64,000 bases of DNA. Source: Calothrix brevissima NIES-22 (GTDB lineage: Bacteria > Cyanobacteriota > Cyanobacteriia > Cyanobacteriales > Nostocaceae). The notes below the pieces were generated by a model. That model was not told the DNA's origin. It saw only the letters and a program-made list of their open reading frames with translations, and made no database searches. Made by a program: the position numbers and the translations under genes. The stretch lies in NCBI RefSeq assembly GCF_002367995.1, contig NZ_AP018207.1, positions 5,135,963 through 5,199,962 on the forward strand. Reading direction: 5' to 3'. The first letter of the stretch is position 1; every line of letters starts with the position of its first letter. Positions 11,738-45,290 of this stretch are shown here, one piece after another.

Positions 11738-11809
11738 GCCAGCATAGCACAGTGGTAGTGCATCCGACTTGTAATCGGAAGGTCGTCGGTTCAAATCCGA
11801 CTGCTGGCT
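11738..11809 (+). tRNA. trnT: tRNA-Thr (anticodon TGT)
   Basis: A 72-nt cloverleaf. The acceptor GCCAGCA pairs with TGCTGGC (11802-11808), with discriminator T at 11809. The D stem is GCAC/GTGC, the anticodon stem TCCGA/TCGGA encloses loop CTTGTAA (anticodon TGT at 11770-11772), and the T arm is GTCGG-TTCAAAT-CCGAC. CCA is not encoded. The anticodon reads ACA and related Thr codons. Confidence 0.97.
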
Positions 11810-37789: not shown

Positions 37790-38965
37790 TTAATATTCGG
37801 GAACGGAAGAATCTACTTCTCGACTCCAAGCGGTGATTCCGCCTTTAACGTTTGTACCGACAATTCCTGCATCTTTAAGAATGCTCAGGGCTTTTGCCGA
37901 TCGCCCGCCCATTTTACAATGAGCAATTAAGCGGTGTCCGTTGAGGATTTCTTTGACTTGTTGCACGCCATTGCCATTTTCAATATCTGGTAATGGAACT
38001 AATACTGAACCAGGTATTTTGGCGATTTCGTATTCATGGGGATTGCGCACATCTAACAGTACAAAATCTTTTGCACCGCTATCTAATAACTGTTTCAATT
38101 CTGTCACAGTCATTTCTTGAATTTCTTGCTGCTGTTTGGCTTCCTCGGCTTTCGCTTGGGGAATACCGCAGAATTCTTCGTAGTCTATCAGTTTTTCAAT
38201 TACTGGGCGAATCGGGTTTGGACGCAGTTTCAATTCGCGGAATTTCATTTCCAATGCATTGTATAGCAGCAGTCTTCCGCTTAAGGTGTTACCTTGTCCG
38301 AGGATAATTTTGACAGTTTCTGTGGCTTGGATCACGCCAATAATTCCCGGCAATATGCCTAACACCCCACCTTCTGCACAGGAGGGAACCATTCCTGGTG
38401 GTGGTGGTTCGGGATACAAGTCACGATAATTCGGCCCGCCTTCATAGTTAAATACGGTGGCTTGTCCTTCAAAGCGGAATATGGAACCGTAGACGTTAGG
38501 CTTGTTGAGCAGTACGCAAGCGTCGTTAACTAAATATCTGGTGGGGAAGTTATCAGTTCCGTCAACGACAATATCATAGGGTTCCAAAATACTCAGGGCA
38601 TTTTCGGAACTCAGGCGCACTTCATGCAAATCAACTTGACAAAAGGGGTTAATTTCGAGAATTCTATCTTTAGCTGATTGAATTTTCGGTTTACCTACCC
38701 AGGATGTACCGTGAATTACTTGGCGTTGCAAGTTCGATGTATCAACCACATCGAAATCAACTATACCAATGCGTCCTACACCCGCAGCTGCTAAATATAA
38801 CAGCAGTGGCGCACCGAGTCCACCTGTACCGATACAGAGTACACTGGCGGCTTTGAGGCGTTTTTGCCCTTCTAGCCCTACTTCCGGCAAAATTAGGTGA
38901 CGGGAGTAACGTTCGTAATCGTCTTTGGTTAACTGGATTTCTTCCAGATTGGGATTGAGCGACAT
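37790..38965 (-). CDS. moeB: MoeB/ThiF-type adenylyltransferase with C-terminal rhodanese domain
   Basis: A 391-residue E1-like enzyme. Residues 1-270 are the ThiF/MoeB core: GTGGLGAPLLLYLAAAGVGRIGIVDFDVVDTSNLQRQVIH, DGTDNFPTRYLVND. Residues about 285-391 are a rhodanese domain (FVLLDVRNPHEYEIAKIPGS; catalytic Cys in HCKMGGRSAKALS). It activates a ubiquitin-like sulfur carrier such as MoaD or ThiS. The start ATG at 38965 (MSLNPNLEEIQL) lies just outside an 18-bp repeat (38943-38960) that is also at 43601-43618; the start codon itself is supplied by the inserted integrative element. Confidence 0.94.
   Translation of the reverse strand: MSLNPNLEEIQLTKDDYERYSRHLILPEVGLEGQKRLKAASVLCIGTGGLGAPLLLYLAAAGVGRIGIVDFDVVDTSNLQRQVIHGTSWVGKPKIQSAKDRILEINPFCQVDLHEVRLSSENALSILEPYDIVVDGTDNFPTRYLVNDACVLLNKPNVYGSIFRFEGQATVFNYEGGPNYRDLYPEPPPPGMVPSCAEGGVLGILPGIIGVIQATETVKIILGQGNTLSGRLLLYNALEMKFRELKLRPNPIRPVIEKLIDYEEFCGIPQAKAEEAKQQQEIQEMTVTELKQLLDSGAKDFVLLDVRNPHEYEIAKIPGSVLVPLPDIENGNGVQQVKEILNGHRLIAHCKMGGRSAKALSILKDAGIVGTNVKGGITAWSREVDSSVPEY
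38943..38960. other. attL-like 18-bp core at the moeB 5' end
   Basis: TCCAGATTGGGATTGAGC, identical to 43601-43618. On the coding strand it encodes LNPNL of MoeB codons 3-7. Sequences on either side differ from the other copy, as expected for a site-specific recombination core. The true exchange point within it is unknown. Confidence 0.85.
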
Positions 38966-39203
38966 AATGTATACCAATACTTTCAGCGTTTAATCTAGTA
39001 TTTCTAGTACCAAAATAGTAATTTAAGCATTAAAGCAGTTTTAAACGCCTTGTGTCGTAGCTTTTTGGCTAGTAATATTCTAGTTTACTACTAGGTAGTA
39101 CATATCTCACCCTCAACCCTAAGAACTGAGGTTAAAGGTATATCTCTCAACCGCTTAAGCATTAGCAATATTTTCACTCAACACAAGCACTCTGGACAGT
39201 TCA

Positions 39204-39235
39204 ATCAAACGTTTTGATTTTGTTACACATTCAAG
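39204..39235. repeat. 32-bp direct repeat, copy 1
   Basis: ATCAAACGTTTTGATTTTGT followed by TACACATTCAAG; 28 of 32 bases match copy 2 at 39606-39637. Both are upstream of the 140-residue ORF in the integrative element, possibly a regulator binding site. Confidence 0.8.
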
Positions 39236-39540
39236 CTAGAATAGTAAAGGCTAGAACAAGCCAGTAAATTGAATAATTTCTCCCATGCCACGACCGGGAT
39301 GAGATTTTTCATAGAGTTATAGAGATACAGAATACGGGATATGGTAATTGCGATTTATGAGTCGTGGTTAGTGTGATGTAGAAATTTGTTGCACAAACTT
39401 GTTTCACAGTTTCATAGCCATTAATAGATAAGCATTGTGAGCATTTTAGTAGTGATGCCACTAGCACTTAGTTATCTGTTATCTGCTATAGGGAAGATAT
39501 TCTAATTACCTGCTATATAGCCATATAAAGCTTATGTCTG

Positions 39541-39570
39541 GATTTGTTAGACAAATTGTTTAACAATTTT
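39541..39570. repeat. Double-dyad repeat, copy A (inverted orientation)
   Basis: Contains ATTTGTTAGACAAAT and AAATTGTTTAACAATTT, two overlapping dyads. It is the reverse complement, with one mismatch, of copies B (40119-40147) and C (42169-42197). It lies about 105 bp upstream of the 140-residue ORF. Confidence 0.85.
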
Positions 39571-39605
39571 CTATATAAGCTAAACATAGTCACCTGGATG
39601 GTTAT

Positions 39606-39637
39606 ATCAAACGTCTTGATTCTGTTACAGAATCAAG
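39606..39637. repeat. 32-bp direct repeat, copy 2
   Basis: ATCAAACGTCTTGATTCTGT then TACAGAATCAAG; it includes the near-perfect dyad TTGATTCTG-T-TACAGAATCAA. It ends 37 bp before the start of the 140-residue ORF, a good position for an operator. Confidence 0.8.
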
Positions 39638-39674
39638 TTAATGTATTTACAGGATACATTACAACGTTGAATCA

Positions 39675-40097
39675 ATGAATAAATACCTAGTGGAGTTAAA
39701 GCACTCTACCACTGATGACATGCTACTTGTCCAGCTAGAAAGTGACTCACTAGAGAATGCTGGCGACAATGCATTAAAAGCTAATCCTGATTATGAATTA
39801 GTCAAGGTTAAGCATACTCATGGTGGTAAAAGAACTGGCGCTGGTAGGGCTGGTAAGTGGGGCGATGGCGTTAAGACTCAGGTTTACAGATTACCGCCTA
39901 CTATTGGTGACAAAGCTGAAGATATAGTTAGTGAACTGGAGATGATTAACCATATCCTTGAAAGCTGGCAATCAGAAGTTGATAGATCAAAATCCAGGTC
40001 AGATAGTGGTCAGCCTTCAGCGCGTTATGAACATGTTGCTCAACTGCTAGATGACTTAAAAAAGGCTATGAAAGTAACTGGTGAGAAGCTAGTGTAA
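39675..40097 (+). CDS. 140-residue hypothetical protein of the integrative element
   Basis: ATG 39675; protein begins MNKYLVELKHSTTDD. A central stretch HGGKRTGAGRAGKWGDGVKTQVYRLPPTIGDKAEDIVSELE resembles the GGxRxGAGRK motif seen in small DNA-binding phage/plasmid proteins followed by a short basic-to-hydrophobic helix. The C-terminus is charged. No catalytic motif is visible. Operator-like direct repeats lie upstream, and copy B of the double-dyad repeat lies 21 bp after its stop. Possibly a small regulator; function unknown. Confidence 0.6.
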   Translation: MNKYLVELKHSTTDDMLLVQLESDSLENAGDNALKANPDYELVKVKHTHGGKRTGAGRAGKWGDGVKTQVYRLPPTIGDKAEDIVSELEMINHILESWQSEVDRSKSRSDSGQPSARYEHVAQLLDDLKKAMKVTGEKLV

Positions 40098-40118
40098 GTT
40101 GCAGTAACAGTTATCTCT

Positions 40119-40147
40119 AAAATTGTTAAACAATTTGTTTAACAAAT
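40119..40147. repeat. Double-dyad repeat, copy B
   Basis: 29 bp identical to copy C (42169-42197): AAATTGTTAAACAATTT dyad overlapped by ATTTGTTTAACAAAT. Located 21 bp after the 140-residue ORF. Confidence 0.9.
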
Positions 40148-40228
40148 ATCACTAACAGAGATACAGCTAAAGGCTAACAATTCTTATATAGCTAACTAGT
40201 TATATTGAAGACATTTAAACCAACAAAT

Positions 40229-40263
40229 AATAACCCCGTCTTATGTTGCTAGACGGGGTTATT
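40229..40263. terminator. Strong 13-bp stem terminator between convergent element genes
   Basis: AATAACCCCGTCT (40229-40241) pairs exactly with AGACGGGGTTATT (40251-40263). It lies between the plus-strand 140-residue ORF and the minus-strand small ORF and could serve both directions. Confidence 0.9.
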
Positions 40264-40280
40264 TAATGTGTACAGATGGA

Positions 40281-40421
40281 TTAATTGCAGTATAGCTTAC
40301 TTAGCAAGATATCCTTTACTAAAGATATTTGTTGCTTATTTTCACGTTTTAATTCAGCTAATTCTTTTTCAATTTCAGCTATTTGTTTAAGTTGTTCAGG
40401 CGACAAGGTTTTAGCTTTCAT
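40281..40421 (-). CDS. 46-residue small ORF after the KfrA-like gene
   Basis: ATG 40421, stop TAA 40281: protein MKAKTLSPEQLKQIAEIEKE then a Leu/Glu/Lys-rich helix ending in LSKLYCN. Predicted as a single amphipathic coiled coil. It is on the same strand and 19 bp downstream of the KfrA-like gene stop (40441), so it may be co-transcribed. Its short size makes the call tentative; no family is recognised. Confidence 0.5.
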   Translation of the reverse strand: MKAKTLSPEQLKQIAEIEKELAELKRENKQQISLVKDILLSKLYCN

Positions 40422-40440
40422 TTTTTAATTCCTGTTTTTA

Positions 40441-40929
40441 CTAGCTTGCGGACATTCCGTTTAATATTGCTTTTATGTGAGATTCTAAGCTGTCTATTTT
40501 AGCTTGCTTCTCTTCAGACCTTTCTAGGAGTTCATTATAAAGTCTTCTCAATTCATCCAATCTAAAAACACTTTGCTCTGATATTTCCAATCTCTCTTGA
40601 TATGATTCAATTACTTTTTCTAATTCAACAATTTTTTCATTGTCAGATATTAGTTCATATTTTTGACAGAAAGTATTCCAGAGTGCCTGACTCAATTCAC
40701 CTTCTCCAATCAGTTTTTTAATTGCTTCAGGCATAGGATAATTTTTTGCTGGAGCATCGTTGTCTTCTCTGTCTTTCCATTCCTTCAGAAACTTGCCAAT
40801 AGTGGTATATGAACCATAACCAGTCTCTTTTCTAATCTTCTCTTGAGTAACTATCACTCCTTTTGCAAATAGCTCATCGGCAACTTTCCAGACTAATTCT
40901 TTTGTGACTCTTTGGCTTGACCTTTCCAT
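40441..40929 (-). CDS. KfrA-like DNA-binding protein
   Basis: A 162-residue protein. The N-terminal DNA-binding domain (about 1-65: SSQRVTKELVWKVADELFAKGVIVTQEKIRKETGYGSYTTIGKFLKEWKDRE) matches the KfrA_N pattern from plasmid-encoded KfrA. The C-terminal half (about 95-155) is a coiled coil (NEKIVELEKVIESYQERLEISEQ). KfrA autoregulates its promoter on plasmids; here it is inside an integrated element. Operator-like dyads lie upstream at 40944-40975 and 40991-41017. Function in this element is inferred, not shown. Confidence 0.8.
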   Translation of the reverse strand: MERSSQRVTKELVWKVADELFAKGVIVTQEKIRKETGYGSYTTIGKFLKEWKDREDNDAPAKNYPMPEAIKKLIGEGELSQALWNTFCQKYELISDNEKIVELEKVIESYQERLEISEQSVFRLDELRRLYNELLERSEEKQAKIDSLESHIKAILNGMSAS

Positions 40930-40943
40930 GTCTTTCCATCTGT

Positions 40944-40975
40944 AGTGTATTGTATTATACGTATTTTAATACACT
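40944..40975. promoter_or_regulatory. Candidate KfrA operator dyad 1
   Basis: Ends AGTGTATT and AATACACT are inverted around a GTATTATACGTATTTT centre, 15-46 bp upstream of the KfrA-like start codon. A second dyad (40991-41017) shares the motif AGTGTATTGTATT. Confidence 0.55.
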
Positions 40976-40990
40976 TGTACTATGATGTCT

Positions 40991-41017
40991 AGTGTATTGT
41001 ATTGTATTACATACACT
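40991..41017. promoter_or_regulatory. Candidate KfrA operator dyad 2
   Basis: AGTGTATTGTATTGTATTAC with ATACACT completing an inverted repeat, about 62-88 bp upstream of the KfrA-like start. The neighbouring gap to 41459 has no further gene; a short GGAGCC/GGCTCC hairpin is at about 41105-41125. Confidence 0.5.
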
Positions 41018-41459
41018 TTGATACAGTTCTGAGATGCGACTTTAGCTATCTGCCAGTTAAGCGTCACTCTTAGCCTTATTCGTTATATCCCCATAAATAA
41101 ACAAGGAGCCTTTGTGTCAGGCTCCCCTTGAGCAATTCTGTAAGGTACATTCCATTTCTATGATACTGGAATTTCCGCTATAAGCTAGAGCCATAATGAG
41201 TAATATTGCTTAATATTGATTTAATCTGTGCTAAATAGTGTTTTATTGCCCTATTTACTATTAATTAGCTTTTTTATGAATATTTCTACTTGAGGAACTG
41301 TACTGTACTGTACTACACACAGTTAATACAGTTTGTGAGTGAGCTTATGGTAAAAACTACCATTATTATTTGGCGACTGTTGGCTACTTGATGGTTAACG
41401 CAGTGTTTTTTACGCCGGAATGGGTAAACCGTTCGGGTGTTTTTCCGTGGTTATTGTAG

Positions 41460-41645
41460 CTAGCCTTCTGATTGCTTGTTTCTGTCCAGTTTCTCTTGTA
41501 TGGCATCCCGGCAAAACTGAGCAGGGTTATCTTGTTGCTGTATTGCTTCCTTCATTTCCTTAGTTGCCCTAAAAGTCACATTCTCTGTTAAATCCCTACT
41601 CGGTGGATTGTCAAAATTTTCTGGTTTACCCTTGCGTCCTGACAT
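41460..41645 (-). CDS. Small ribbon-helix-helix-like protein
   Basis: A 61-residue protein: SGRKGKPENFDNPPSRDLTENVTFRATKEMKEAIQQQ then DNPAQFCRDAIQEKLDRN. The ENVTFRATKEMKEAI...FCRDAI pattern resembles an RHH DNA-binding fold, as found in small regulators or antitoxins on mobile elements. No toxin is next to it. The divergent SAP-like ORF starts 58 bp away, so it may regulate a shared promoter. Confidence 0.55.
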   Translation of the reverse strand: MSGRKGKPENFDNPPSRDLTENVTFRATKEMKEAIQQQDNPAQFCRDAIQEKLDRNKQSEG

Positions 41646-41703
41646 TGTTTAGAAAAGTAAATATGACTTTAATTCGGTGCTTGCGTCGGTTTACAGTTAT
41701 TAA

Positions 41704-42153
41704 TTGGTAGGTAAACCAGCCTGGAAAACTTGTTACCTACCAAATCCACCATTAGAAAATGGACAGTACCATTTTATGTTTACAAGGGAAGAATTAGAAG
41801 GCTTAAGCGTCAGGAAGTTGCGCAACTTGTGCCATCGCTATCACATGCAGAATGTGAACTCGACACTTAGTAAAAATAAAATCATCTATCTGATGACATT
41901 CTGCCAGACTGCTATCAATCAGTTCCGACAAGGTAAAGGTTTAAAATCGCCTGGATTAGCTAGCATCGAATCTCTCGCCAAGATAATTGAGCAAATGAAT
42001 ACACCTACTGATGAACAGAAGGGACTAGTTAATTTTTCACTTGATGATGACCGGAGAATGCAAGGGCAAGATGGAATAGACCAAGAGAAATTAATCAGAT
42101 TGGGTACTGCGCATATCTTACTTGAGAAGGCTTATAAGCTGCTAAGTGAGTAG
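41704..42153 (+). CDS. SAP-like hypothetical protein of the integrative element
   Basis: A protein of 149 residues from a TTG at 41704, or 125 from ATG 41776 (MFTREELEGLSVRKLRNLC). The segment LEGLSVRKLRNLCHRYHMQNVNSTLSKNKIIYLMT resembles a SAP/LEM-like DNA-binding helix-loop-helix. The C-terminal part is helical. Copy C of the double-dyad repeat begins 15 bp after its stop. Function unknown. Confidence 0.55.
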   Translation: MVGKPAWKTCYLPNPPLENGQYHFMFTREELEGLSVRKLRNLCHRYHMQNVNSTLSKNKIIYLMTFCQTAINQFRQGKGLKSPGLASIESLAKIIEQMNTPTDEQKGLVNFSLDDDRRMQGQDGIDQEKLIRLGTAHILLEKAYKLLSE

Positions 42154-42168
42154 GGAGAGATGATCTAA

Positions 42169-42197
42169 AAAATTGTTAAACAATTTGTTTAACAAAT
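42169..42197. repeat. Double-dyad repeat, copy C
   Basis: 29 bp identical to copy B (40119-40147), in the same orientation, 15 bp after the SAP-like ORF. Confidence 0.9.
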
Positions 42198-42224
42198 CTA
42201 GAAAACAGTTCTAGAGACACAAAA

Positions 42225-42250
42225 AAAGAGAGTAGAAATACTCTCTTTAA
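42225..42250. terminator. Bidirectional terminator
   Basis: AAAGAGAGTA, GAAA loop, TACTCTCTTT (42225-42248), A-rich on the left and T-rich on the right. It separates the SAP-like ORF from the integrase gene, which end here from opposite directions. Confidence 0.85.
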
Positions 42251-42270
42251 GTTTTTATGCTTAGTTAGGT

Positions 42271-43521
42271 TTAAATATCCGCTAATTCTCTTTGCTTATC
42301 TGGTTGTAAATAATGTTTCATTATCTTATCTACACTTGTCCCACAAACATCAGCTATTAATGCTAAGTCTGTACCATTATTGGCTTGAATACTGATGAAA
42401 GTATGCCTAGTTGAGTATGGTTTAAGATATTGAAGTTTCCCCTCGTTAGCTAATGTTGTAACAATTCCGTTGTAAACTCTTCCTTCACTGTATTTTTTAT
42501 CCCAAACTCCAGCTAAAGTATCTAATGAAACTCGTTTACCATTTAGTTTTGTAAACAACAAATCTGTATCAGAACAGTTATTAGTAGCTGTTTTTAACCT
42601 ATCTATTAACATGGCTAAACGGGAATTTTTCTTGAACTTAAAAATGCGAATAACATTAGTTTTTGTCTCTTTAATTTCTTTGCTAACAGAACTATAAGCA
42701 TCCTCAAAGCGTATCCAACCCTTGTCTAAATTAATATGTCTCCATTCAAGGGCAAAGGCTTCGCCAGGTCTACAACCTGTAAGAAATAAAAATTCTATTA
42801 ATTCTGCTAATTTTCTGAATGATGGTTTTTGAGAAGAATAAAAAGAGTTAATTATCAAATCTCTTTCTTTGATAGTATATGCTCTACAATCTTCTTCTTC
42901 TTGTAATTGCTTTGATTTTTTTTGTGGTTTATAAAATTTCTTTATTTCTGCAAAATAATCTTTTTTTAGTGTGCCGTTATTTATGGCTCTTTGGGACATT
43001 GAACTTAAAGCACCAAATAGTTTACCGATTGAATCGGAGTTAGTGCGTCTAGCACACAAATCATCTATTATTGTTTGGGCTAAATCTTCTGTGAGTGGTT
43101 TATTTAAATAGTTTTTTAACAAGGAACCAAAACTTCCTTCATATCTTCCTATGCGTGTACCGTTTGATATCTGCTTAGTGTCAATCTTCCAATCTACATA
43201 CTCTTGCCAAAGTTCTTTAAGAGTAGGAATGGGAAGGCTACCTGGAAGATTTACAACATTGCTTTTGAGTTCAAGATACTTGTTTAAAGTAGGGTCAAAA
43301 TTAATACCATTCTGGTAATCAATATCTTCTTGAATTCGTCGTGTTATTCCTTCAGCCCAATTTCTATTATCATCTGTATCACTTCTTCCCAGTCCTATAT
43401 ATTTTTGTCTTTTTCCGTAAAACTGTTGAGAGACACGACTGCTAAATTGTAATCGTAGAGAACCTTTGTCAACTCCTAATCTCACATCTGTTTGCTTGCT
43501 GGATTCTTGCTTACTGTACAT
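42271..43521 (-). CDS. Tyrosine site-specific integrase
   Basis: A 416-residue phage-type integrase. Catalytic residues: Arg251 in TGCRPGEAFALEW, Lys287 near KTN, the box YSTRHTF with Arg372 (Tyr369 replaces the usual His), His373, and nucleophile Tyr404 in IMKHYLQP. The N-terminal half (about 1-200) holds the arm/core-binding regions. The start is 80 bp inside the right-hand att repeat, typical for an integrase beside its attachment site. It is the enzyme expected to have placed the element in moeB. Confidence 0.93.
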   Translation of the reverse strand: MYSKQESSKQTDVRLGVDKGSLRLQFSSRVSQQFYGKRQKYIGLGRSDTDDNRNWAEGITRRIQEDIDYQNGINFDPTLNKYLELKSNVVNLPGSLPIPTLKELWQEYVDWKIDTKQISNGTRIGRYEGSFGSLLKNYLNKPLTEDLAQTIIDDLCARRTNSDSIGKLFGALSSMSQRAINNGTLKKDYFAEIKKFYKPQKKSKQLQEEEDCRAYTIKERDLIINSFYSSQKPSFRKLAELIEFLFLTGCRPGEAFALEWRHINLDKGWIRFEDAYSSVSKEIKETKTNVIRIFKFKKNSRLAMLIDRLKTATNNCSDTDLLFTKLNGKRVSLDTLAGVWDKKYSEGRVYNGIVTTLANEGKLQYLKPYSTRHTFISIQANNGTDLALIADVCGTSVDKIMKHYLQPDKQRELADI

Positions 43522-43600
43522 TGCTAGTATTTTTCTAGTATTAGAGTACAGAAACTATTGTATAGCAAAGGCTTTCCATTGATTATTATTATTTGCTAAA

Positions 43601-43618
43601 TCCAGATTGGGATTGAGC
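43601..43618. other. attR-like 18-bp core with stranded moeB start
   Basis: TCCAGATTGGGATTGAGC, identical to 38943-38960. With the next two bases the minus strand reads ATG CTC AAT CCC AAT CTG, the apparent original moeB start (MLNPNL). The frame then departs from MoeB and stops within about 16 codons, so this is a stranded 5' gene scrap. Confidence 0.85.
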
Positions 43619-43686
43619 ATAGCAATTTTCAGTGGAGGGCGGATTATTTATCGTAGCGAAAAATGATATCCGTATCGATCGGTTGT

Positions 43687-44145
43687 TTAAATTATGTTGT
43701 TAATTACTTCTGGTTGGAATTGATGGTTGTCGTCTAGACTCCAGCTTTGGAGTGTTTCCGCTTTGCCTTTTTGAACGGAAACTATTATATACGAGTATTC
43801 CGGCCAAGCATAGAGGCGATCGCATTCTGAAGGTATGGCGGGTGCGTCGGGGTGGGAATGGTAAATCCCGATGATATTCAAAGCACAATCGCGGGCTGTT
43901 CTTTGTGCTTGTAACATAACTTGAGGTGCGATCGCATATCGTCGTCTTGGGGTATCCTGAGTGCGATCGCCTGGGAAATCATCTATAGTATTATTCCAGG
44001 CATTTTCTGTGGGTATCACTTCCACTACAGTTTTGCTTTCACTCATCCCGTGACCCAGGATTATACCGCAACATTCATCGGGGTAAGTACTTTCGGCGTG
44101 GCTGCGGATAATTTCTAGGTGTTGGGGAAGAATTCGCAGAATCAT
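43687..44145 (-). CDS. JAMM/M67-family metallopeptidase (Mov34/MPN/PAD-1 type)
   Basis: A 152-residue zinc peptidase domain: YPDECCGIILGH supplies the Glu, and YHSHPDAPAIPSECDRL gives the HxHx10D zinc motif. Such enzymes trim C-terminal extensions from small sulfur-carrier proteins. The stop is 66 bp before the stranded moeB start, so it was probably co-transcribed with moeB before the integrative element arrived. The start at 44145 abuts the four-helix-bundle gene stop. Confidence 0.93.
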   Translation of the reverse strand: MILRILPQHLEIIRSHAESTYPDECCGIILGHGMSESKTVVEVIPTENAWNNTIDDFPGDRTQDTPRRRYAIAPQVMLQAQRTARDCALNIIGIYHSHPDAPAIPSECDRLYAWPEYSYIIVSVQKGKAETLQSWSLDDNHQFQPEVINNII

Positions 44146-44504
44146 TAAAAATTGCGGCTAAGTTTCTCAATCGTATGTTCTAGTAATTCTTTCACTTCCA
44201 CGATACTGCTGACAAGGCGATCGTAATCTGAAGGTTGCACCAGTTCTAACTCATAACAAAGTAGCAGATAATATTCTAATTCTATGGCTGAATCTCTAGC
44301 CATTTCTAAAAAATCTAGTTTTTCCTCGATTTCTTCGCGGTGACTTCCCTGAGCAATTTTAATTGGAACAGCAGAAGCAGCTAAACGTATTTGTTGGGTT
44401 AAACCCAGTAATTCATCGTCGGGAAAATTTCTGGTTAAATCATAAATTGCTACTGTAAGTTCGTGGGCTTTATCCCAATCTGGAAGAGTTCTAAATTCTG
44501 ACAT
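44145..44504 (-). CDS. Four-helix-bundle protein (23S rRNA intervening-sequence type)
   Basis: A 119-residue helical protein: WDKAHELTVAIYDLTRNFPDDELLGLTQQIRLAASAVPIKIAQG, a typical four-helix-bundle family opening, and EKLDFLEMARDSAIELEYYLLL. Family members occur inside rRNA intervening sequences or alone, with no known enzymatic activity. Its stop touches the JAMM peptidase start, suggesting co-transcription. Confidence 0.88.
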   Translation of the reverse strand: MSEFRTLPDWDKAHELTVAIYDLTRNFPDDELLGLTQQIRLAASAVPIKIAQGSHREEIEEKLDFLEMARDSAIELEYYLLLCYELELVQPSDYDRLVSSIVEVKELLEHTIEKLSRNF

Positions 44505-44879: not shown

Positions 44880-45008
44880 CATTCAATTACCAATTTGATT
44901 TGAGGATAAGTGCGTAGGCGTAACCTGCCTTCGGCATCGTAAAAAACAACAAAGCCTAGCTACACAGCCGCTTATTGTAAGACAGCGCCATTTTTGAGCC
45001 AGTAATCT

Positions 45009-45290
45009 GGCTTTTTACCTGCGGAAAACACCTTTAGGAGTGCGCGATTTACCGAATTGGGTAAGCAATATGGCTTTTTACTTGCGGAAAACACTAAAAC
45101 TAGTGCGCGATTTACCGAAATGAGTCAGCGATAAGACTTTTTGAGTAGGTAAAATAGTATTTTACTTGCGGAAAACACCATAATGAGAAAGCGTTAAGGC
45201 TTAACGAGAAGGTGAAATGGCTTTTTGCTTACTGAAAACAGGAAAATGAGTACTTGATTTAGATAAATGAGAAGGCGATCGCCATTTATC
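45009..45290. repeat. Degenerate tandem repeat block (about 63-84 bp units)
   Basis: GGCTTTTTACCTGCGGAAAA at 45009, GGCTTTTTACTTGCGGAAAA at 45072, TATTTTACTTGCGGAAAACA near 45157, and a decayed GGCTTTTTGCTTACTGAAAA near 45219. The second half of units 1 and 2 shares GTGCGCGATTTACCGAA. No coding frame is supported. Confidence 0.75.

Follow-up and report, generated by a model that had tools for sequence, protein, structure and literature searches.

Mobile elements that enter conserved genes at the 5′ end and restore them with element sequence are already known from published work. Passages of PMC8409611 describe the dusA-associated islands (DAIs; IMEVchUSA3), in which the 5′ end of the target gene is replaced by element sequence, and the integrative and conjugative element (ICE) SXT in prfC, known to us through a citing paper, likewise targets a 5′ end. 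In the host group considered here, the Nostocaceae, elements in nifD, fdxN and hupL encode recombinases, carry direct repeats and lie within genes, according to sections of PMC4874684. We analysed a 64,000-nucleotide stretch of Calothrix brevissima NIES-22 (contig NZ_AP018207.1, positions 5,135,963 to 5,199,962; hereafter the window; host genome G000, 9.26 Mb) and confirmed a 4,658-bp integrative element between the gene of a JAMM peptidase and moeB. Very probably this is a small site-specific element that recombines an 18-bp core at the start of moeB, and its moeB-side arm gives the gene its ATG and probably its promoter. An earlier note, made from these letters alone, had proposed an integrative element at the 5′ end of moeB, and both the repeats and the empty sites in all seven genus mates support it. 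What it missed is that the element returns a start codon to moeB, that integrase-free arms occur in other genomes, and that related elements use several target genes. Genomes are denoted by G numbers and loci by L numbers; the locus is composed as follows.

37790..38965, minus strand: moeB, the target, frame intact, encoding a molybdopterin-synthase adenylyltransferase (PF00899 and rhodanese domain PF00581 in Pfam; NF005646, MoeB of NCBIfam, 819.8 bits)
38943..38960, minus strand: attR-like core in moeB (exact repeat)
38961..39121, minus strand: distal (moeB-side) arm, proposed outward promoter (conserved at other targets and at moeB genes whose products begin M-S-L)
38961..43600, no strand: integrative element, a 4,658-bp unit counting one core (relatives' empty sites)
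38963..38965, minus strand: new moeB ATG, element-supplied by sequence; absent from this place in the relatives' empty sites
42271..43521, minus strand: tyrosine integrase, 416 aa (PF00589; phrog_1, E 8.2e-36)
43522..43600, minus strand: integrase-side arm (69/79 identical to the G130 element)
43601..43618, minus strand: attL-like core (exact repeat)
43618..43620, minus strand: native moeB start codon, now severed from moeB; it opens a 21-codon leader (MLNPNLDLANNNNQWKAFAIQ followed by a stop) ahead of the integrase
43621..43675, minus strand: native moeB upstream region (ATCATTTTTCG...GATAAATAATCC), left on the JAMM side; in genus mates the same sequence stands directly 5′ of moeB
43687..44145, minus strand: JAMM (Prok-JAB) peptidase gene, the 5′ neighbour of moeB at empty sites (PF14464)

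The core, TCCAGATTGGGATTGAGC (18 bp), is present in two exact copies, one in moeB and one outside the integrase gene, as the earlier note had it; the 4658 bp that it gave for their separation is the start-to-start spacing. Matches to the core with up to three mismatches numbered 3, compared with a mean of 0.04 in dinucleotide shuffles. Read on the coding strand of moeB as it now stands, the core starts at codon 2, third base, and stops at codon 8, second base; the earlier placement at codons 3-7 was substantially right. The integrase start codon lies 97 bp from the beginning of the outer core copy, and the GC content of the element is 0.349, that of the window 0.403.

Joining the window flanks with a single core yields the JAMM gene, the native upstream region and a moeB opening of ATG CTC AAT CCC AAT CTG GA. 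This junction was found in 7/7 genus mates (156-186 of 203 bases identical), which is the adjacency of moeB and the JAMM gene without the segment that the earlier note had proposed looking for in relatives. The lowest match is that of G007, where the JAMM side differs (62/97), other sequence having entered there, and G058, of another genus, has an empty junction with 179/203 bases identical. The core opens on the last letter, G, of the native moeB ATG. The window moeB opens with ATG TCG CTC AAT CCC, of which ATG and TC are element-derived, and the N-terminus of the protein has changed from M-LNPNL to M-SLNPNL, with one residue added and the frame whole; the NF005646 alignment starts at residue 3, the L that follows M-S. 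The native upstream region now faces the integrase. The locus combines direct repeats at the element's ends (one of them beside the integrase) and an empty site in relatives, as befits a tyrosine-integrase element, with a 5′-end insertion whose frame is restored by element sequence.

In the mechanism that we propose, the integrase would recombine the 18-bp core at the moeB start. By integration, moeB would lose the native promoter and ATG and come to adjoin the distal arm, which would supply an in-frame ATG two bases ahead of the core and probably a promoter too, the native upstream region being left to read toward the integrase. In the circular form the distal arm would lie directly ahead of the integrase, where the proposed promoter would serve that gene before serving the target after integration. 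Decay of the interior would leave the arm in place as a footprint, because its loss would remove the moeB start. From the sequence we infer both promoter activity of the arm and present mobility of the element. A further proposal is tentative, and we lean mildly against it: a heritable promoter swap, in which the distal-arm promoter of the circle drives the integrase through attP and integration passes that promoter, together with a start, to a conserved host gene in exchange for the host promoter, which goes to the integrase. If true, the swap would tie expression of the host gene to retention of the element and would leave, across the family, gene starts domesticated from elements (moeB, thiE).

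Among 217 family genomes, 18 contain an integrase that matches at E ≤1e-100, and three have one at moeB: G000, G130 and G191. In G130, of another genus (L059), an integrase 96% identical in amino acids sits between the JAMM gene and moeB within an element of ~1.6 kb that consists of integrase and arms, and both core copies have one variant base in common. In G191 (Nostoc linckia z4, L060) an 84% identical integrase lies next to the JAMM gene; the first contig reads JAMM, native region, core, integrase and a match to the region of the element's KfrA-like gene, and another contig (L061) begins with arm and moeB. The earlier note had also suggested looking for the same integrase beside other moeB copies, and its clade does occur there in G130 and also in G191, where a contig break intervenes. 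DNA identity between G000 and G130 is 1185/1251 for the integrase and 151/161 for the arm, compared with 978/1169 (84%) for moeB and 317/441 (72%) for the JAMM gene. As integrase and arm (~94-95%) are more alike than moeB and JAMM across genera, the comparison indicates horizontal transfer, by which the element would have moved between genera. We also observed sequence resembling the element's SAP-like and ribbon-helix-helix (RHH)-like genes just 3′ of moeB in G130, outside the small element (L059 1-576, L091 16636-17198), and an integrase fragment in G007 (G007:C1:7814501-7814752, L089), 71% identical to residues 1-79 of the window integrase and away from moeB.

Related elements occupy other genes. 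A scan of genome contigs gave 77 loci, all cyanobacterial by title but one (a Gracilibacteria metagenome-assembled genome), and integrases of ~50-59% identity were located at other targets. UPF0102/yraN is the target in G191, with the core at codons 3-8, and in G155 an integrase stands beside yraN, where the distal arm was not found. Four genomes have the insertion at a DUF3110 gene start, with imperfect repeats; by rows counted by eye, its junction is continuous in 47/53 genomes, weakly matched in G192 and split in five (G202, G188, G169, G180 and G012). The split in G012 (G012:C1:1271471-1274534) measures ~2.8 kb and is possibly a fifth member. The thiE start is the target in six genus mates. 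At that site the ThiE start (MTITRI...) lies, by eye, within an element-like arm, the integrase (L082-L088) is broken by stops in G005, and a similar thiE start region near 7598024 of G000:C1 (L216) stands beside an apparent integrase stub. The G002 element is located 77 bases 5′ of a phosphoketolase/transketolase-family gene, with cores that differ by one mismatch; the junction is continuous in six other non-window genus members and partly matched across it in G000. In G039 (L075, G039:C1:3948000-3964000) a 5.8-kb element with a 16-bp repeat splits DAHP synthase, whose junction is matched in 146/208 genomes and is in two pieces only in G039, a few partial matches missing the junction; a second related element of this genome lies close to the 3′ end of a gene for an alpha/beta hydrolase. 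By reading, the element of Calothrix sp. NIES-4105 is located after an apparent signal peptide and that of G165, with a 14-bp repeat, in an apparent helicase gene. A tree of 25 integrases places the moeB (3), yraN (2), DUF3110 (4) and thiE (6) members each in one clade of their own (100/100), and each of these multi-member clades holds to one target gene.

The arrangement at the targets is largely recurrent. In the moeB-, DUF3110-, DAHP- and G002-type insertions the integrase is co-oriented with the target and lies behind the target's native upstream part, the distal arm facing the gene; in yraN-type insertions it is the integrase-side arm, not the distal arm, that faces the gene start. The moeB-type arms have an in-frame ATG just before the core; judged by eye, the arms at DAHP synthase, yraN, the hydrolase and G002 do not have one at that place. 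Its presence there in the moeB-type arms alone of those compared suggests that the arm ATG may have been fitted to its target. Cargo, judged by sequence resemblance, was compared across seven related elements larger than 4 kb: RHH- and SAP-like genes recur in 6/7, a KfrA-like gene in 2/7 and a gene of 140 aa in 4/7, with a further partial copy in the Calothrix element. Variable cargo comprises a ParA-type ATPase and an SprT-like protein (Pfam), a P4-primase-like protein with DUF3854, and proteins read without a family search as AlkB-like and methyltransferase-like.

The arm also occurs where the integrase does not. We compiled a census of 98 moeB upstream regions, namely the top 96 of 192 similarity-ranked genomes together with G197 and G213, which joined on an arm match; 11 of the ranked 96 are M-S-L, and six of these were fetched early, their match starting at residue 1. 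The M-S-L start is present in 13/98 regions; every one of these has the arm in register and lacks the native motif. The other 85 have no arm in register; 73 have the native motif and 12 were called for neither, and the non-M-S-L genome G181 has a weak arm match out of register. Features of the distal arm are ACTAGA repeats and a GCTGAAAGTATTG(A/G)TAT motif. By tblastn, no integrase was found around moeB, within the fetched stretch, in 10 of the 13 M-S-L genomes. G197 reads JAMM, native motif with half a core, RHH- and SAP-like genes, arm and M-S-L moeB, and the integrase was not found at this locus. G083 retains the SAP-like gene and G213 the RHH-like gene; in G183, G052 and G039 the JAMM gene lies 0.4 to 2 kb 5′ of moeB and element genes were not found, and the JAMM gene was not found in the stretches fetched for G113, G155, G172 and G175. 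Because the census profile was built partly from six moeB arms, the independent test is a profile from seven non-moeB elements, which matched in register in 11/13 M-S-L regions versus 0/25 other regions; G052 and G083 match the window arm by BLAST. In a moeB tree of 38 genomes, M-L and M-S-L starts interchange five times, at least three of these changes being forced by well-supported branches, whether as gains or losses. In this tree the window moeB branches beside five M-L genomes, as their sister and not from among them. Integrase-free arms would be footprints of the element that still give moeB its start, as part of the account that we consider very probable.

A different origin would make the arm native: in some lineages it would be the ancestral promoter of moeB, and the element would have captured the moeB 5′ end of a donor as a spare. 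The ten M-S-L loci at which the integrase was not found agree with such an origin, as does the grouping of 11/13 M-S-L genomes within one well-supported moeB clade of 16 rows. However, an arm of this type is also found in elements at unrelated genes (ACTAGA repeats, GCTGAAAGTATTG(A/G)TAT-like motif), three of the 11 in-register matches of the non-moeB profile reach E <0.01, G197 retains the native motif and half core on its JAMM side, and the moeB tree needs its five changes; we regard a native arm as quite improbable. More improbable still is an interruption element excised in development, as in nifD, fdxN and hupL. The Nostocaceae host, an internal site-specific recombinase and direct repeats resemble what the same sections of PMC4874684 describe, and a relative splits DAHP synthase in G039, but the moeB frame is whole with the element present. 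The null reading of the earlier note, a chance repeat in an ancestral gene order, could draw on a third, inverted core copy with 2 mismatches at 44467-44484, itself probably there by chance, within the neighbouring 23S rRNA-intervening-sequence-type gene. It is already refuted by the empty sites of the 7/7 genus mates, the variant base common to both G130 cores argues likewise, and it retains next to no probability. An old insertion that merely looks intact, and is now an immobile, degenerate remnant, would be compatible with the proposed manner of arrival. No transfer, replication or excisionase gene was recognised among the five element proteins (Pfam, PHROG, NCBIfam), and the sister position of the window moeB means that the insertion could be old; against this, the integrase frame is open, the core copies are identical, and the integrase has 94.7% DNA identity to that of G130 across genera. 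We judge a remnant unlikely, although it keeps real weight.

Several observations count against the preferred account of a site-specific element that gives moeB its start. A promoter scan listed no sigma-70-like site in the arm. The G191 element is split over two contigs, its continuity being assumed, and the thiE-type relatives yielded no distal arm and no empty site. No excisionase was recognised, the PHROG excisionase match of the SAP-like protein having E 0.29. In the independent arm test, the other eight in-register matches have E 0.2 to 21, G052 and G083 gave no in-register match, and an out-of-register match of 6.4 bits, equalling several of those weak eight, came from one M-L region.

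The element encodes four further proteins besides its integrase:

39675..40097, plus strand: 140-aa conserved element protein (homologues in the L072, L075, L077 and L120 elements; partial in L071)
40441..40929, minus strand: KfrA_N-type DNA-binding protein (PF11740, E 5.5e-18)
41460..41645, minus strand: 61-aa RHH-like protein, label unproven (similar open reading frames by eye in 6/7 elements >4 kb)
41776..42153, plus strand: all-helical conserved protein of ~125 aa, SAP-like label unproven (alignment of 11 sequences)

The tyrosine integrase named in the earlier note is borne out by PF00589 (E 1.6e-13), and its columns R251, R372, H373 and Y404, which we take to be catalytic, are invariant across 9 aligned sequences; one PDB sequence, 3nkh, matched the integrase profile. 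Of the cargo labels in that note, KfrA-like stood and the other two remained unproven, with no supporting Pfam match. At the limits applied, nothing in PHROG, Pfam or NCBIfam matched the 61-aa protein. For the SAP-like protein, Pfam gave no SAP match, just a weak unrelated one (E 0.052), and PHROG matches were weak only; its predicted model (predicted local distance difference test score 79.5, predicted template modelling score 0.51) retrieved nothing at E 0.001 in a fold search. The model of the 140-aa protein is poor in the middle. No relaxase or conjugation gene was matched among the five proteins in these databases, oriT lying outside the search. Palindromes built on TTGTTAAACAA / TTGTTTAACAA are located at 39532-39586, 40111-40165 and 42161-42215, and these words occur 5 times within the element and 0 times in the surrounding 15.3 kb; they are possible regulator sites. 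Outside the element, a 63-nt direct repeat is present in four imperfect copies at 44994-45266.

Other classes of element were considered and rejected. A tRNA-linked island was ruled out, as no tRNA is near (the sole tRNA of the window is at 11738). For a prophage or phage satellite, there was no virion or packaging PHROG, a spanin match to the KfrA-like protein being at chance level (E 0.13); no relative was found in viral contigs, and among phage integrases the best is 30.1% identical (best 10 of 16 records). For a plasmid-borne relative, three plasmid integrases reached 28-31% identity only, and two accessory proteins gave two weak matches each, this plasmid search having covered proteins other than the KfrA- and RHH-like ones.

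In the literature covered, which left out most subscription journals, we found neither moeB as an attachment site nor this cyanobacterial family, and the moeB passages of PMC10383233, PMC6385640, PMC5406005 and PMC12843858 do not describe such a site. The passage in PMC6385640 concerns a prophage of Dickeya that is flanked on the right by MoeB and has a different, longer repeat, which looks like a tRNA end. The remark of the earlier note that a coding start would be an uncommon attB holds, with dusA and prfC as precedents. A sulfur-transfer gene hereby joins the gene starts that serve as attachment sites, used by an element of just 1.6 to 4.7 kb. The insertion would leave a lasting mark, as an element arm and start codon are present in 13/98 moeB regions, in ten of which the integrase was not found. 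As each multi-member integrase clade has one target gene, the family is a natural series in which to study how target choice changes among tyrosine integrases and what makes gene starts tolerable as sites.

Compared with known systems, the element is linked to P4-type or plasmid-like elements through a relative, the Calothrix sp. NIES-4105 element, which carries the P4-primase-like protein (D5_N above cut-off, TIGR01613 below it); it differs from them in having no replication gene recognised by the three databases. SXT is conjugative, whereas no conjugation gene was recognised here by the same means. The nifD, fdxN and hupL elements break their gene until excision, in contrast to the whole moeB frame, although the DAHP synthase relative in G039 resembles an interruption of that kind. 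With the DAIs the element shares its insertion into a conserved gene whose 5′ end is replaced by element sequence. DAIs, in the passages cited, are islands and prophages of Proteobacteria with dusA as target, whereas the window element targets moeB in cyanobacteria; elements of its type are distinguished by a length of 4.7 kb or 1.6 kb, a one-residue change in the target protein and integrase-free footprints.

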